A stretch of 64,000 bases of DNA from Levilactobacillus yonginensis (lineage in GTDB: Bacteria; Bacillota; Bacilli; Lactobacillales; Lactobacillaceae), in NCBI RefSeq assembly GCF_003946265.1, contig NZ_RHNO01000002.1, positions 62,001 through 126,000 of the forward strand, in the 5' to 3' direction. The translations under genes and the position numbers were made by a program. Shown piece after piece: positions 16,760 through 60,321 of this stretch. Each line of letters starts with the position of its first letter. The stretch's first letter is position 1. The notes beneath the pieces are model-generated. The model had not been told where the DNA came from and made no database searches. It worked only from the letters and a program-made list of their open reading frames with translations.

Positions 16760-16773
16760 GTAGGCTACAACTC

Positions 16774-16951
16774 GCCAGTAACAGCCCGAAACGGTGCCTG
16801 CTGTGGGGACGCTTCAGCCAAAGGGCGGGCTTCTCGCTCGGTTTGAAGCCACGGAGAACATGTGTCTTCAAAGCCGCCCATGACCTAAGCTAGCAAACAA
16901 CGCTAGCTAACGTCATTTTCACGGCTGGCACCATCTCGGGCTGCCACTGGC
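16774..16951 (+). repeat. Structured intergenic repeat, copy R1
   Basis: The outer stem pairs 16774-16798 with 16927-16951 through three paired blocks (GCCAGT/ACTGGC, CAGCCCGA/TCGGGCTG, GGTGCC/GGCACC). Inside are a hairpin GGTTTGAAG/CTTCAAAGCC (16840-16875) and a hairpin at 16880-16916 (TAAGCTAGC with GCTAGCTA). It shares CTGCTGTGGGGACGCTTCAG with R5 and R10. It lies after the dtd terminator and fills most of the 16697-17077 gap. Confidence 0.85.
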
Positions 16952-17077
16952 TTAGAATGTCGTCACCTGCGAGAAGCGTAGCGGGCAACAGAATTGATTT
17001 TGTATTTATGTCGTGCATAACACGTCAACAACGTCAGTGTTATTCAAAAAAATTCTTAATCCGAGGAGGGACTTAGT

Positions 17078-17767: not shown

Positions 17768-17959
17768 GATAGCTTGCAAAGCGTATCAACAAGTTTTGGT
17801 ACTGGTAAGTTAGCGTGAATTGGTTGGGTTTCAAAAATCAGGGAATATAGCCATCTGCGATTGTGTTTTAGCACGTTCAATATTTAAGTTATTATACGCA
17901 TCCATTTACTGGACTAATTGCTACCACGGATTAGTTGAATTGGTTGCTTACTGTGTAAG

Positions 17960-18127
17960 CCGAGAGGTCGCCAGATATGGGCTCAGGCGCGTCGTTCTGC
18001 TTAGTTAGTAGGCGGGTTTCCTGCTGGCTTAGCAGAAGACCAAGCTTGGAGACTCGGGTGGTCTTTCGAGGCTTCAAGTTGTGTTCGCACCGCACCGTAC
18101 CGGCCCATAGCTGGCGGTCGGCAAGGC
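17960..18127 (-). repeat. Structured intergenic repeat, copy R2
   Basis: On the minus strand the outer arms CGCCAGCTATGGGC and GCCCATATCTGGCG pair almost fully. Inside lie the shared ACAACTTGAAGCCTCG hairpin and a second stem based on TCTGCTAAG/CTAAGCAGA. It closely resembles R7. It begins 36 bp after the stop of the fructosamine kinase gene and has the same orientation, so it would sit in that transcript's 3' end. Confidence 0.8.
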
Positions 18128-18162
18128 GAAAGGACACACTGTGCAGGTCAGGAGCAGAATAG

Positions 18163-24336: not shown

Positions 24337-25212
24337 ATGGATGATGTTCAGCAGTTGTTAAAACGACACACATATATGGCAAAGTTTTCGGTTGCCTTCT
24401 TCTATGGGGTGTTGGTCTCCATTGCGGTGAACTTTTTTTGGACACCGGGTCATATCTATTCTTCCGGGGTTACTGGGCTGGCACAATTGGTTAACACGTT
24501 AACTGCCGGGCTGGGTGCCTTTCATATCAATACCGGGTTAGGGCTGTTCCTGATTAACATCCCCATGTTTTTCCTGGCATGGAAACAAATTGGTAAGTCC
24601 TTCACGGTCTTTACGTTTATCTGTGTGCTCTTTGCGTCGGTCATGATTCGGGTGATTCAACCCATTCATTTGACCAGCGATCCGATTATTTGTGCGATCT
24701 TTGGGGGCGCCGTCAACGGCTTTGGGACCGGTTTTGCCTTGAAAAATGGAATTTCTACCGGTGGTTTGGATATTATTGGCATCGTCTTACGGCGCAAGAC
24801 TGGTCGGAGCATGGGGACCATTAACATTGCGTTCAACAGTCTGATCGTATTGAGTGCCGGGTTCGTTTACGGCTGGCCTTATGCACTGTATTCTGCATTG
24901 GGACTGTTCGTCAACGCCAAGGTAATCGACATGACCTTTACGCGGCAACAGCGGATGCAGGTCATGGTTATTACCGATCGGCCGAAAACGGTGATCGATA
25001 GCATTCAAAACCACCTTCGACGAGGCATTACCATTGTCCATGGGGCCGAAGGGGCCTACCATCATGATGAAAAAACGATTCTATTTACGGTCATTACCCG
25101 TTACGAGATGGATGAACTGGAGTCAGCCATGACTGAGGCTGATCCAAAGGCGTTTGTCAGCATTTCGGACACGGTGAAGATCTTAGGACATTTCTACGAA
25201 CCTAAATGGTGA
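24337..25212 (+). CDS. YitT family membrane protein
   Basis: The 291-residue protein has five or six hydrophobic helices in its first 200 residues (AKFSVAFFYGVLVSIAVNFF on), with the family motif FGTGFALKNGISTGGLDIIG. A soluble C-terminal DUF2179-type domain follows (MQVMVITDRPKTVIDSIQNHL and GAYHHDEKTILFTVITRYE). This is the standard YitT layout; the substrate is unknown. A GAGGTCTG site lies upstream. It is a single gene with its own terminator. Confidence 0.92.
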   Translation: MDDVQQLLKRHTYMAKFSVAFFYGVLVSIAVNFFWTPGHIYSSGVTGLAQLVNTLTAGLGAFHINTGLGLFLINIPMFFLAWKQIGKSFTVFTFICVLFASVMIRVIQPIHLTSDPIICAIFGGAVNGFGTGFALKNGISTGGLDIIGIVLRRKTGRSMGTINIAFNSLIVLSAGFVYGWPYALYSALGLFVNAKVIDMTFTRQQRMQVMVITDRPKTVIDSIQNHLRRGITIVHGAEGAYHHDEKTILFTVITRYEMDELESAMTEADPKAFVSISDTVKILGHFYEPKW

Positions 25213-25224
25213 TTTTTTCACCGA

Positions 25225-25262
25225 TCGACTGGTCTTCCACGCGGAGGCTGGTCGATTTTTTT
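25225..25262 (+). terminator. Terminator of the yitT-like gene
   Basis: CGACTGGTC pairs with GGCTGGTCG (G-T pairs) and CTTCC with GGAGG, followed by a long T run. Confidence 0.85.
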
Positions 25263-25355
25263 TGAAAGTAACTAAAGGTTGAAAGTTTGGAAACCGTTGT
25301 CAAACCAAGACTAGTGAAGCACTATAGACTTAAAATTAGTCTCACCCAGCCACCT

Positions 25356-25524
25356 GCGGCGGTCAGAGATTCCGCCTGCTGTGGGGAACGCCTGCGGCCT
25401 GAGAAGCGGTCCTCCGGCTCGGTTTGAAGCCTGGAAAACCACTAGTCTTCAAACTCGTCCCACGCTGTAAGCCGAAAATCGGCTAACACCGTCGACACAG
25501 CTGGCTACACCTCTGACCGCCTCC
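25356..25524 (+). repeat. Structured intergenic repeat, copy R3, nested in the composite element
   Basis: The outer stem GGCGGTCAGAG/CTCTGACCGCC encloses the shared GGTTTGAAG...CTTCAAAC hairpin (25420-25453) and a small GCCGA/TCGGC hairpin. The flanks CAGCCACCT and CCGGTTAAAC are contiguous in the 55 kb copy of the composite element (there ending TTGGTTAAAC), so R3 is an insertion. CCT occurs at both junctions. Confidence 0.82.
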
Positions 25525-25605
25525 GGTTAAACGGGTTCTTGGAAACTAAGCTAGCTTAGGTGTTTGAATGACGTCACTTACTCAGTACTTTTAGCGCGCC
25601 ACTAG

Positions 25606-25780
25606 GTAGCCGAGAGTGAGCTAAATTTGGACTAAGCCGTGGGATTTTCAAGTGTATTTCTTGAAAATGGCGACTTGAAGACGTGCTTTTCGGCTTCAAG
25701 CGAGGGGCAAGACCGTCCTTTGGCTTGTCCCGTCCTTCCCACCGTGTTTCAGTCCAAATTTGGCGAACGGTAAGGCGGGC
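25606..25780 (-). repeat. Structured intergenic repeat, copy R4
   Basis: It lies within the composite element. On the minus strand GCCAAATTTGGACT and AGTCCAAATTTAGC form the outer stem. Inside are GGGACAAG...CTTGCCCC, CTTGAAG...CTTCAAG and ATTTTCAAG...CTTGAAAAT. It is nearly identical to R8. Confidence 0.82.
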
Positions 25781-25908
25781 AATTCCCCACTATGTCTGAC
25801 TAAATCCCAATACCTAATCCTTGTTGCATCAGGTATAGTGGATGTTTCAGTACTTTCAACCTTTTGAAAGTAATAGAACGTTGGAATCGTTTAAAGGCAG
25901 TTGAGCGG

Positions 25909-26035
25909 GTGGTTTTTCCAGATTACAGCACAGGTGACTTTGGCGGCTCGGATTTTTCGTGGCTTCAAATCGAGCGAGAAGCCCGCTCTTGGGCTGAAGC
26001 GTCCCCACAGCAGGCGGAATTCCTGACCGCCGGAG
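25909..26035 (-). repeat. Structured intergenic repeat, degraded copy R5
   Basis: On the minus strand it matches R10 and R1 through the block CTGCTGTGGGGACGCTTCAG and the following TTTGAAGCCACG. The distal outer arm and the second half of the shared hairpin are mutated, so pairing is largely lost. It looks like a decaying copy. Confidence 0.7.
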
Positions 26036-26157
26036 TAGGACCAATTTAGAAGAGGTTGGCGCTGGCTACAGTTGGTAGCTGGCAAGATTTCCAAAGAAAT
26101 TTGGGGTCGAATACTTAAAGGTTCTTAAAAATCCCTAGGTTCACAGGGTAGATGTGG

Positions 26158-33729: not shown

Positions 33730-33875
33730 AACTAAAGGTCGAAGGCTCGAAAATCAATATCAAACCAGGAATAATAAGGCGTTATAGGCTTCAAGCGAGG
33801 GGCAAGACCGTCCCGTCCTTCCCACCGTGTTCCAGTCCAAATTTGGCGAACGGTAAGGCGGTAAGTTTCCACTAT
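33730..33875 (-). repeat. Deleted derivative of the composite element, copy R6
   Basis: The left end AACTAAAGGTCGAAGGCTCG (33730-33749) corresponds to the 55431 end of the 55 kb element. The rest (GGCTTCAAGCGAGGGGCAAG to CGAACGGTAAGGCGG) matches R4 on the minus strand. The whole middle, including the P3/P4 hairpins and one outer arm, is missing. It occupies the 33582-34003 gap, which shows no gene. Confidence 0.75.
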
Positions 33876-47253: not shown

Positions 47254-47282
47254 TGTGATGAGTACCAGTTAGCAGGTTATTG

Positions 47283-47405
47283 CCGCCTTGCCGGTCGACC
47301 GAGATGGGCTGGAACGGTGTGGGCACAACTTGAAGCCTCGAAATTCACGAGTCTTCAAGCTTGGCCTTATTCTAAGCCTGAGCCCATCTCGGTCGACCTC
47401 TCGGC
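47283..47405 (+). repeat. Structured intergenic repeat, copy R7 (short form)
   Basis: An 18-bp perfect outer stem pairs 47293-47310 with 47381-47398 (GGTCGACCGAGATGGGCT and its complement). Inside is the shared CTTGAAG-C-CTCG...CGAG-T-CTTCAAG hairpin. The P2 hairpin seen in R8 and R9 is absent. It lies in sense orientation directly behind glyS, before its terminator. Confidence 0.85.
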
Positions 47406-47493
47406 TAGACGGTGGTTCCGTATCAGCTATCAGCTTTAGACTAGGCTGTCACTGTGAAGCAAACTACTCACCAAAGTGTAAAATCAACATTAA

Positions 47494-51555: not shown

Positions 51556-51613
51556 ATATTGGGGACCAAATCTTAACGGATTTGGTCCTTTTTTTGTGTT
51601 TTTTTTGGATTAG
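51556..51613 (+). terminator. rpoD terminator, first copy of a duplicated segment
   Basis: GGGACCAAATC is followed by TTAAC and GGATTTGGTCC, then a long T run. The segment from ATATTGGGG through the hairpin, and again TTTTTTGGATTAG, recurs at 53888-53934. Confidence 0.92.
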
Positions 51614-53887: not shown

Positions 53888-53934
53888 ATATTGGGGACCA
53901 AATCTTAACGGATTTGGTCCCTTTTTTGGATTAG
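53888..53934 (+). repeat. Second copy of the rpoD terminator segment
   Basis: It is identical to 51556-51588 over 33 bases, including the GGACCAAATC/GATTTGGTCC hairpin, and then shares TTTTTTGGATTAG after a small length difference in the T run. The two copies flank the CAP and IS30 genes. Confidence 0.9.
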
Positions 53935-54987: not shown

Positions 54988-55040
54988 AAGTAAGTTTAAT
55001 TAACTAAGGATTGAAACGAACAAGCTCATTTGATATCAAC

Positions 55041-55431
55041 AACTAAAGGTTGAAAACAATGAAACACCCACTATGCCTGATACAACAGGGATTAGGTATT
55101 GGAGTTTAGTCAGACATAGCGGGAAATTGCCGCCTTACCGTTCGCCAAATTTGGACCGGAACGCGGTGGGAAGGTCGGGACAAGCCAAAAGGCGGTCTTG
55201 TCCCTCGCTTGAAGCCGTAAAGCACGTCTTCAAGTCGCCATTTTCAAGAAAATCACTTGAAAATCCCACGGCTTGGTCCAAATGTGGCTCACTCCCGGCT
55301 ACCTCGTTGAGCACCAATAGTGCTGTCATTCAGGTATCTCAGCTAGCTTAGTTTTCAAGAACCTGTTTAACCAAAGGTGGCTGGCGAGACTAATTTTTTT
55401 GATAACGGTATTCGAGCTTTCAACTTTTAGT
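55041..55431 (+). mobile_element. MITE-like element with terminal inverted repeats, carrying R8
   Basis: ACTAAAGGTTGAAA (55042-55055) is matched by TTTCAACTTTTAGT (55418-55431) with one mismatch. The interior is homologous to 25271-25864 in the opposite orientation, minus R3. No coding capacity is seen; short frames inside are shadows. It splits the Rrf2-MMPL intergenic region. Confidence 0.78.
55129..55302 (+). repeat. Structured intergenic repeat, copy R8 (complete form)
   Basis: The outer stem GCCAAATTTGGACC (55144-55157) pairs with GGTCCAAATGTGGC (55275-55288). A second helix GTGGGA/TCCCAC (55166-55171, 55264-55269) encloses three hairpins: GGGACAAG/CTTGTCCC (55177-55204), CTTGAAG/CTTCAAG (55208-55234) and ATTTTCAAG/CTTGAAAAT (55240-55264). 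Confidence 0.88.
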
Positions 55432-55501
55432 CAATAATCAGTGGAGATCGGTTCAATCATTAGGTCATAGAATTAAGAGAATTGTTTTAGGAGGTTTTCC
55501 C

Positions 55502-58783: not shown

Positions 58784-58796
58784 CCGTTGATTGTCG

Positions 58797-58973
58797 CCTC
58801 CAGTTGCCGGGCGCCACCAGCTGTGGGGACCGGGACAAGCCTGTGAAGCGGTCTTGTCCCGCGACTTGAAGCCTCGGCAAACCACCGAGTCTTCAAGCTC
58901 GTCCCGTGTTCGTCACTCGGTAATTCCGAGCCACGAACACTTTCACTGCTGGCGGCTTGCCCGGCAACCTCCG
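58797..58973 (+). repeat. Structured intergenic repeat, copy R9
   Basis: Outer stem GTTGCCGGGC (58803-58812) pairs perfectly with GCCCGGCAAC (58959-58968), extended by GCCACCAGC/GCTGGCGGC. Hairpins are GGGACAAG/CTTGTCCC (58832-58860), CTTGAAG-C-CTCGG/CCGAG-T-CTTCAAG (58865-58897), and GTGTTCGT/ACGAACAC (58906-58940) with inner CTCGG/CCGAG. It directly follows the MMPL gene in sense orientation. Confidence 0.88.
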
Positions 58974-59066
58974 GCTATGGATTTGTGTGGTTCCTGCTGA
59001 TGTGTTATTAGACAGTAGAATCCACGTCGTCAATTTCCAAACCAATGGTAAAATACCAATAAGTTT

Positions 59067-59729: not shown

Positions 59730-59989
59730 AAGTGGCGTCTTCGCAAACAAATCCAAGATAATTGGGTTGTCTGTGGGGCGCTTTTTTTAGTTGTCGACAG
59801 AGTGAGAATTTTGAAGATTGGCTAGAAATGTGTCTTTCCACCTTACTGGTTACTAGATATGGGATGAAGCTGTGCTAATCTGACTCCATAGTTGGTGTCT
59901 TTTAGGCTGACATAAAATTTTGCTGTTAAGTAGCTACAAAATCGTTTATCAGTTGGCTCACAAAGGTAGAAATCATGTTAGACCACAAA

Positions 59990-60168
59990 CGGAGCCGGAG
60001 GCGGTCAGGGATGGCGCCAGCCGTGAAGGTGGTGTTAACTGGTGATTTTCCAGTTTACAGCACGGGCGACTTTGAAGACACGAGGTCTTCGGGGCTTCAA
60101 GTCGAGCGAGAAGCCCGTTCTTTGGCTGAAGCGTCCCCACAGCAGGTGCCATCCCTGACCGCCGGAGC
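59990..60168 (-). repeat. Structured intergenic repeat, copy R10
   Basis: A 16-bp perfect outer stem pairs 60000-60015 with 60148-60163 (GGCGGTCAGGGATGGC and its complement). On the minus strand the interior has CTGCTGTGGGGACGCTTCAG, the CTTGAAG...CTTCAAAG hairpin, and a hairpin AACTGG/CCAGTT (60039-60056). It lies 150 bp upstream of trmK in antisense orientation and fills much of the 59730-60321 gap. Confidence 0.85.
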
Positions 60169-60321
60169 GCAACTAATCAGGTATCGTTCCCCACATGTGG
60201 CATACTGCTAGAATTTCCCGCTATTCAATTGCCGACGAGTGCCTTATACTTGAGAGAAGAGACGTGTGTTGGCGGCAACATTGCCAGTCAGCACCGACAG
60301 TAGAAAGGAAGAGTCATTCAT

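Follow-up and report, generated by a model that had tools for sequence, protein, structure and literature searches.

Bacterial MITEs are short, non-coding elements with terminal inverted repeats, a target duplication, strong secondary structure and many intergenic copies, and they share their ends with a full insertion sequence (IS). The element described here is the same in all of these respects, yet it differs in having aboard two members of another dispersed structured-repeat family, each of which can be lost separately. At ~595 bp it is also larger than most MITEs, because it carries these two structured-repeat units. Pneumococcal BOX elements likewise consist of modular small repeats with terminal repeats, a target duplication and a length that depends on the modules present, and a capacity to grow into longer forms is described for them (PMC3049150), whereas the present element belongs to another host, is, as far as is known, different in sequence and modules, and appears to lose its modules. 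REPINs (PMC3116915) also arrange related palindromic units as inverted pairs in many extragenic copies, but theirs are short REP palindromes rather than units of ~190 nt, and the units here travel with IS4-type ends and target duplications. Anabaena sp. 90 similarly has numerous MITEs between its genes, with several inverted repeats inside them and an ISPepr1-type IS alongside; its authors report finding no end similarity between the MITEs and the ISs of that genome (PMC3542288), unlike the Levilactobacillus MITE, whose ends are identical to those of an IS of the genus. The titles and abstract openings that were searched, with subscription papers mostly outside reach, contained no description of this MITE or of its cloverleaf units, and the family seems to be undescribed in the searchable literature, though its kind is known.

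The window analysed here is a stretch of 64,000 nucleotides from Levilactobacillus yonginensis (contig NZ_RHNO01000002.1, positions 62,001 to 126,000), in which a sequence-only reading had paired two elements, at 25 and 55 kb, with common ends and a reversed core. This pairing was confirmed, with coordinates right to within 2 bp. Our preferred reading, to which we give a probability of about 0.85, is that both belong to a genus-wide, IS4-mobilised MITE family whose modules A and B are lost after insertion, the 55-kb copy being a product of such loss. The 25-kb copy runs from left end through module A, spacer and module B to right end, with the following parts.

25272 to 25866, plus strand: full-length MITE, 595 bp (sequence read, genome search, filled site in the related genome G027)
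25265 to 25271: left target site duplication, AAAGTAA (sequence, flank statistics)
25867 to 25873: right target site duplication, AAAGTAA (sequence, flank statistics)
25272 to 25285, plus strand: left terminal inverted repeat CTAAAGGTTGAAAG, 14 bp, identical to the ends of the G018 IS
25853 to 25866, minus strand: right terminal inverted repeat CTTTCAACCTTTTG (sequence)
25346 to 25536, plus strand: module A (R3 of the sequence-only reading), cloverleaf-like, removable (covariance model R1, 138.7 bits; deletion junctions)
25605 to 25776, minus strand: module B, cloverleaf-like, removable (A-type model, 48.3 bits, E 1.6e-12; pair counts; junctions)

The commonest form of the right end among the copies is, by eye, CTTTCAACCTTTAG. 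No ORF of at least 100 amino acids is listed inside 25272-25866, and hence no transposase gene lies within this MITE. The site is also filled in G027 (L021), where the locus is identical over 1600 bp to an L. tongjiangensis record (L070). A protein adjoining the element is 99% like its L. tongjiangensis match and 81-96% like those of other Levilactobacillus. L. tongjiangensis has this copy too; among 29 loci compared at the site (27 from Levilactobacillus, two from Lactobacillus sp.), it was not found in any of the remaining 28, of which four have partial A or B matches at the same place, one also reaching an end. An exact empty site for the 25-kb element was not obtained, since in 12 other loci the sequences are too diverged for the junction to be placed.

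The second copy in the window, together with the remnant of a third, is laid out as follows.

55043 to 55430, minus strand: second copy of the MITE, 388 bp, module A missing (alignment, junction analysis)
55036 to 55042: left target site duplication, TCAACAA, present as a single copy in the G028 empty site
55431 to 55437: right target site duplication, TCAATAA, a single substitution away from TCAACAA
55128 to 55307, plus strand: module B of the 55-kb copy (model R1, 53.6 bits, E 5.3e-14)
33732 to 33875, plus strand: third-copy remnant, in which a left end with 2 mismatches and a portion of module B survive

For the remnant, no right end was found nearby within 4 mismatches. Aligned in opposite orientation, the 25-kb and 55-kb copies share their 14-bp ends and core (I1, 205 nt at 88%; I4, 87 nt at 87%; I6, 62 nt at 81%), and the difference between them is a block of ~170 bp. 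As had been read from the sequence, the extra block is bounded by CAGCCACCT and CCGGTTAAAC, where the minus strand at 55 kb reads CAGCCACCTTTGGTTAAAC. The window also holds two terminator-like 41-nt repeats that are 98% identical (51556-51596 and 53888-53928).

In the L. yonginensis genome (G000), this repeat family is present far beyond chance: the 14-bp end CTAAAGGTTGAAAG, with at most one mismatch, occurs at 46 sites, versus 2 for the pattern read backwards. A 594-bp query against the 2.69-Mb genome gave 60 matched pieces from the 40 of 167 candidates that were scored, which puts the copy number at 40 loci or more. Both modules are whole in 20 of these 40 loci, only A in 13 and only B in seven, and over the main matches the copies are ~8-18% diverged from the 25-kb copy. 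With a simple ORF script, 18 of the 20 A+B copies could be placed between called ORFs, 11 of them between convergent genes, six between co-directional genes and one between divergent genes. A survey of 98 genomes, in which up to six candidates per genome were scored, found matches to the element in 28, all among the 35 genomes of the same genus and none among the 63 from 47 other genera; many of these matches cover block A or B only.

Insertion of the element as a whole was observed at the 55-kb place, where it is absent from G028. When the L. yonginensis flanks are joined minus 7 bp, they align gap-free with 186 bp of G028 at 87.1% identity, whereas removing 4-6 or 8-11 bp leaves a match of only 58-65%; the whole element therefore inserted here with a 7-bp duplication. 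The flanks of the family tell the same length. Agreement between the two sides averaged 3.98 of 7 positions at k=7 versus 2.56 for shuffled partners (z 7.7), with z 4.7 at k=8 and z of -1.0 to 1.9 at k=4, 5, 6, 9, 10 and 11; the comparison used the 40 loci in which both ends could be located, out of 71 taken from L. yonginensis, G027 and, in one case, G028, the other 31 having failed at this step, and because some of the 40 are orthologous to each other these z values are somewhat inflated. A further 15 loci from G000, G003, G014, G027 and G028 yielded 13 end-pairs spanning 266-615 bp, of which, by eye, ten have exact 7-8 bp repeats and three (L212, L218 and L224) have no duplication. A search by eye of six genomes for an autonomous element, as an opposite end-pair 0.9-2.5 kb apart, gave none. 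The sequence-only reading had proposed deriving the target duplication from further empty and filled sites in relatives. It had also taken the CCT on both sides of R3 as a hint of a 3-bp target duplication, a candidate that was rejected: the real duplication lies outside the whole element. The flanking CCT is present, but in the consensus it forms part of a 6-bp CCACCT on either side of the block, which is more in keeping with a repeat at a deletion than with the footprint of an insertion.

A likely partner was reached from a genus search for DDE_Tnp_1 transposases, in which 25 of 35 genomes matched and 30 loci were examined, by way of the relatives of an IS that this search turned up in L. 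yonginensis. On contig C114 of G018, 1559 bp lie between two perfect 14-bp MITE ends (14/14 each) and are flanked on both sides by CTGATTAA, an 8-bp duplication. The interval has one stop-free frame of 489 codons, whose product matches the NCBIfam IS4 family model NF049925.1 with 470 bits against a cut-off of 250, along with the DDE_5 and DDE_Tnp_1 domains. The YREK motif has the spacing Y-2-R-3-E-6-K, and it is found in the translation as YARRWQIEGYFKVAK. Members of the ISPepr1 subgroup of the IS4 family are described as 1500-1600 bp long, with ends of the form YT-AA-YTT---A and repeats of 7-8 bp; their targets are AT-rich (PMC2266710). Compared with that published description, the G018 IS shares the length, the 8-bp duplication, the AT-rich target and the Y-R-E-K residues, and agrees at 7 of the 8 fixed end positions, the difference being a G rather than Y at position 7; it is an IS4-family element that by these features resembles ISPepr1. 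The perfect 14-bp end also occurs on fragments of this kind of IS in G008, G011, G019, G026 and G030, those of G011 and G026 having the same flank, and a relative with one exact end is carried by an L. plantarum plasmid.

The idea that the genome should hold a transposase gene whose IS ends match the repeat was borne out for the genus, by the identical ends in G018, but in L. yonginensis itself only to the extent of an 11/14 match. That IS4-family IS (L250:1156-2717, contig C27) has ends CTGAAACTTGAAAG, which agree at 8/8 of the fixed ISPepr1 positions, with no clear target duplication. At some length, relatives of it are matched in 14 of the 35 genomes of the genus. It is 100% identical in G019 over nearly its whole length and in part in G012, G032 and G028, as expected for a recently spread mobile element. 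A search of the L. yonginensis genome for an IS with exact MITE ends returned only this 11/14-end query itself, so that the present-day mobility of the MITE is unproven. Taken together, the G028 empty site, the 7-8 bp duplications and the G018 IS with identical ends identify the element as a MITE family, and membership in a mobile family, which the sequence-only reading had claimed, is borne out. An IS4-family (ISPepr1-like) DDE transposase most likely acts in trans on the 14-bp ends, and it would insert the non-coding MITE into intergenic sites and duplicate 7-8 bp of target; movement in trans by an IS of the G018 kind is, judging from the matching ends, very probable.

What separates the 25-kb and 55-kb copies is best seen in relatives. 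At the 55-kb site, G027 carries the element with the same right flank (TCAACAA), and of module A it retains the left half, joined there to B. We aligned 30 copies with missing parts to a consensus of 17 full-length copies and found A wholly or partly gone in 13 of them, at 11 sites and with about a dozen breakpoints (consensus positions 97-261, 101-252, 112-244, 119-248, 141-219, 105-250, 109-219, 150-401, 71-326, 179-467, 80-237 and, in two copies, ~80-247). In those two, the 55-kb copy (L049; aligner gap 77-245) and L212, a pair of CCACCT repeats has been joined, and the junction of L213 (80-237) sits on another CCACCT. Overall, the 13 A-loss junctions have a 6-bp repeat in three cases, a 3-4 bp repeat in three and 0-2 bp in seven, so that for most A losses the junctions do not bear out slippage at repeats. 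Of the B losses, five (two in orthologous copies) join at CAAATTTGG, four at TTGGCG and nine elsewhere, with the incomplete L039 left out of the junction counts. The half-block in G027 and the differing A-less junctions make the 55-kb copy most likely a deletion derivative that has lost a hairpin piece, rather than the empty site for which the sequence-only reading had taken it. That reading had itself named loss of R3 by deletion with scars as what would speak against it, and the G027 orthologue and the remnants in A-less copies largely amount to this; the pair consequently gives no support to the claim that the A-type repeats have moved. We infer loss rather than gain more generally: after insertion, the hairpin modules would be deleted repeatedly, probably through slippage during replication, and often at short direct repeats that flank them, namely CCACCT for A and CAAATTTGG or TTGGCG for B.

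Orthologous sites bear on the same point. Comparison of 40 L. yonginensis with 31 G027 loci gave 20 pairs, of which 18 were accepted, four on one flank only; L014/L168 and L043/L163 were dropped for short or one-flank matches. Module content differs in seven of the 18 accepted pairs. One of the seven is the 55-kb pair; in the other six (L032, L034, L036, L040, L041 and L043), L. yonginensis is missing all or part of an A or B that is present in G027. None of the 18 has G027 lacking a whole module that L. yonginensis has, in a G027 set that is biased toward full copies because it comprises the 30 best-scoring loci plus one; the G027 copy L183 is missing its left end and the first part of A. Around the A-less copy at L043, L. 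yonginensis and G028 are 100% identical over 801 bp (L043:355-1155 and L225:1-801), which on the face of these sequences is a recent exchange between species; the deletion shared there accordingly counts once, with its polarity read from G027. G027 differs by ~6-9% over the L043 stretch, and at the 55-kb locus L. yonginensis and G028 differ by ~9%.

The alternative that survives best, though we think it improbable, is that the composite was acquired long ago and then amplified in several ancestral forms (A+B, A only and B only), some of the precise A-less or B-less copies being inherited as such rather than deleted later. The division of the 40 loci into whole, A-only and B-only copies fits such a history, as do junctions that recur (352/485 in five copies, 322/490 in four, ~80/247 in L212 and L049), and the five B losses sharing the CAAATTTGG junction could, by themselves, be an ancestral empty form. 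The recurrent junctions nevertheless sit on direct repeats, where repeated slippage is expected, and orthologous pairs differ in their modules at one and the same insertion site.

Less probable still is nested transposition, in which an A-type repeat entered the 25-kb element and the 55-kb copy preserves the empty site. The clean junction at 55 kb, matched in the G027 copy L212 (CAGCCACCTTCGGTTAAAC), and the homology of block A to free-standing A units are what one would look for, and the earlier view that the element is composite, with R3 related to the free-standing A-type repeats, is upheld. Module A, however, occupies the same position in 33 of the 40 L. yonginensis elements, half of it remains in G027 at the orthologous 55-kb site, which contradicts this history, and other A-less copies retain varied A remnants or have lost more than A. 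The A of the 25-kb copy is also 89.7-96.6% identical to A in 32 other elements of the genome, compared with 66.3-74.8% for 18 free A units (20 free loci were compared, one giving only a short match and one none), and being closer to element A than to free units, it is not the recent arrival of a free unit; these identities (90-97% versus 66-75%) instead point to a single, ancient entry. G014 (597-599 bp, ~70% identical) and G003 (615 bp, 74%) have complete A+B elements that bear the same ends and duplications, and together with the A identities these mark the composite as old. At the two sites that were examined for it, no free A unit had demonstrably moved: the unit at 60 kb is common to L. 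yonginensis, G027 and G028, and L. yonginensis shares that at 16.8 kb with G027, G028 having no more than a remnant of it. That the element might be a non-mobile, old, structured intergenic feature spread by recombination, with its ends and repeats coincidental, accords with the ~8-18% divergence of the copies and with the failure to see an exact-end IS in the L. yonginensis genome, but is contradicted by the empty site with its 7-bp duplication, the flank statistics and the IS with identical ends, and can practically be set aside.

A full-length element, in the preferred reading of a MITE whose modules are lost after insertion, holds a pair of cloverleaf-like units, A and B, which are apparently relatives of each other and point in opposite directions. 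The consensus fold of the A-type unit is a long closing stem with three hairpins (53 pairs, 95.0% of cells paired), from an alignment of 25 units outside the element's A, all from the L. yonginensis genome. In it, 31 pairs have changed on both sides, versus a shuffled mean of 12.9 (0 of 500 shuffles as high) and 3-12 in slid controls. For B, with 32 aligned sequences from elements of several species, the fold has 58 pairs (97.8% paired), 21 of them changed on both sides versus 11.6 when shuffled (0 of 500) and 0-6 in slid controls; each structure was derived from the alignment on which it was counted, which biases these counts in its favour. Hairpin-templated mutation could be an alternative source of the covariation. 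When the model is trained on A-type units only, it recovers B on the strand opposite to A, with 53.6 bits (E 5e-14) at 55 kb and 48.3 bits (E 2e-12) at 25 kb. Because the unit is nearly palindromic, three A units read on their reverse strands also reach 33-41 bits, so that the kinship of B to A and its orientation are likely rather than proven.

All 150 scored candidates in the L. yonginensis genome, out of 1078 at first look, match the unit model at E <0.001, giving at least 150 unit matches, a number that includes the A modules inside MITEs and the units used to build the model. Within the window, the model also matches these units outside the MITE.

16768 to 16960, plus strand
58790 to 58984, plus strand
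59985 to 60175, minus strand
25868 to 26043, minus strand
17950 to 18131, minus strand
47281 to 47413, plus strand

Rfam gave no match in the whole window at gathering scores, and when 25200-26100 was taken to E 5 only a 14.5-bit tfoR match appeared, at 25200-25264, outside the element. A ~50-nt stretch (17950-18001; also in G027 and G028) recurs ~100 bp from several free A units, which suggests that A units are often paired with a second unit type. In the orthologues of unit 59985-60175 in G027 and G028, the stems have changed and pairing is, by eye, seemingly kept. Between L. yonginensis and G027, changes were rarer at paired than at unpaired columns: they fell in 49 of 912 paired columns of B versus 53 of 553 unpaired ones (p 0.003, 8 pairs), and in 74 of 1564 paired columns of A versus 61 of 885 unpaired ones (p 0.027, 14 pairs); these structures came from other sequences, and the effect is weaker than with a structure from the same sequences, which would be circular. 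Single changes break the pair in 55 of 63 cases in A and in 20 of 45 in B, and as those in A are mostly pair-breaking, ongoing selection is suggested for B and is weak for A. It is possible, and we put it forward tentatively, that A and B belong to an undescribed superfamily of cloverleaf-like, ~190-nt units kept folded by natural selection, as RNA or single-stranded DNA, for a function of their own, a pair of which was captured and then spread by the IS4-type MITE; matches to the element were seen only in this genus.

From these results, Levilactobacillus gains a countable MITE family with a likely transposase type. A seemingly filled and empty pair within one genome can arise by loss of a hairpin, and it is the orthologous sites in relatives that decide. 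The structured units are the more novel part of the finding than the MITE itself: with at least 150 matches to a covarying unit that has no Rfam family, the question of what keeps these repeats folded becomes directly testable.
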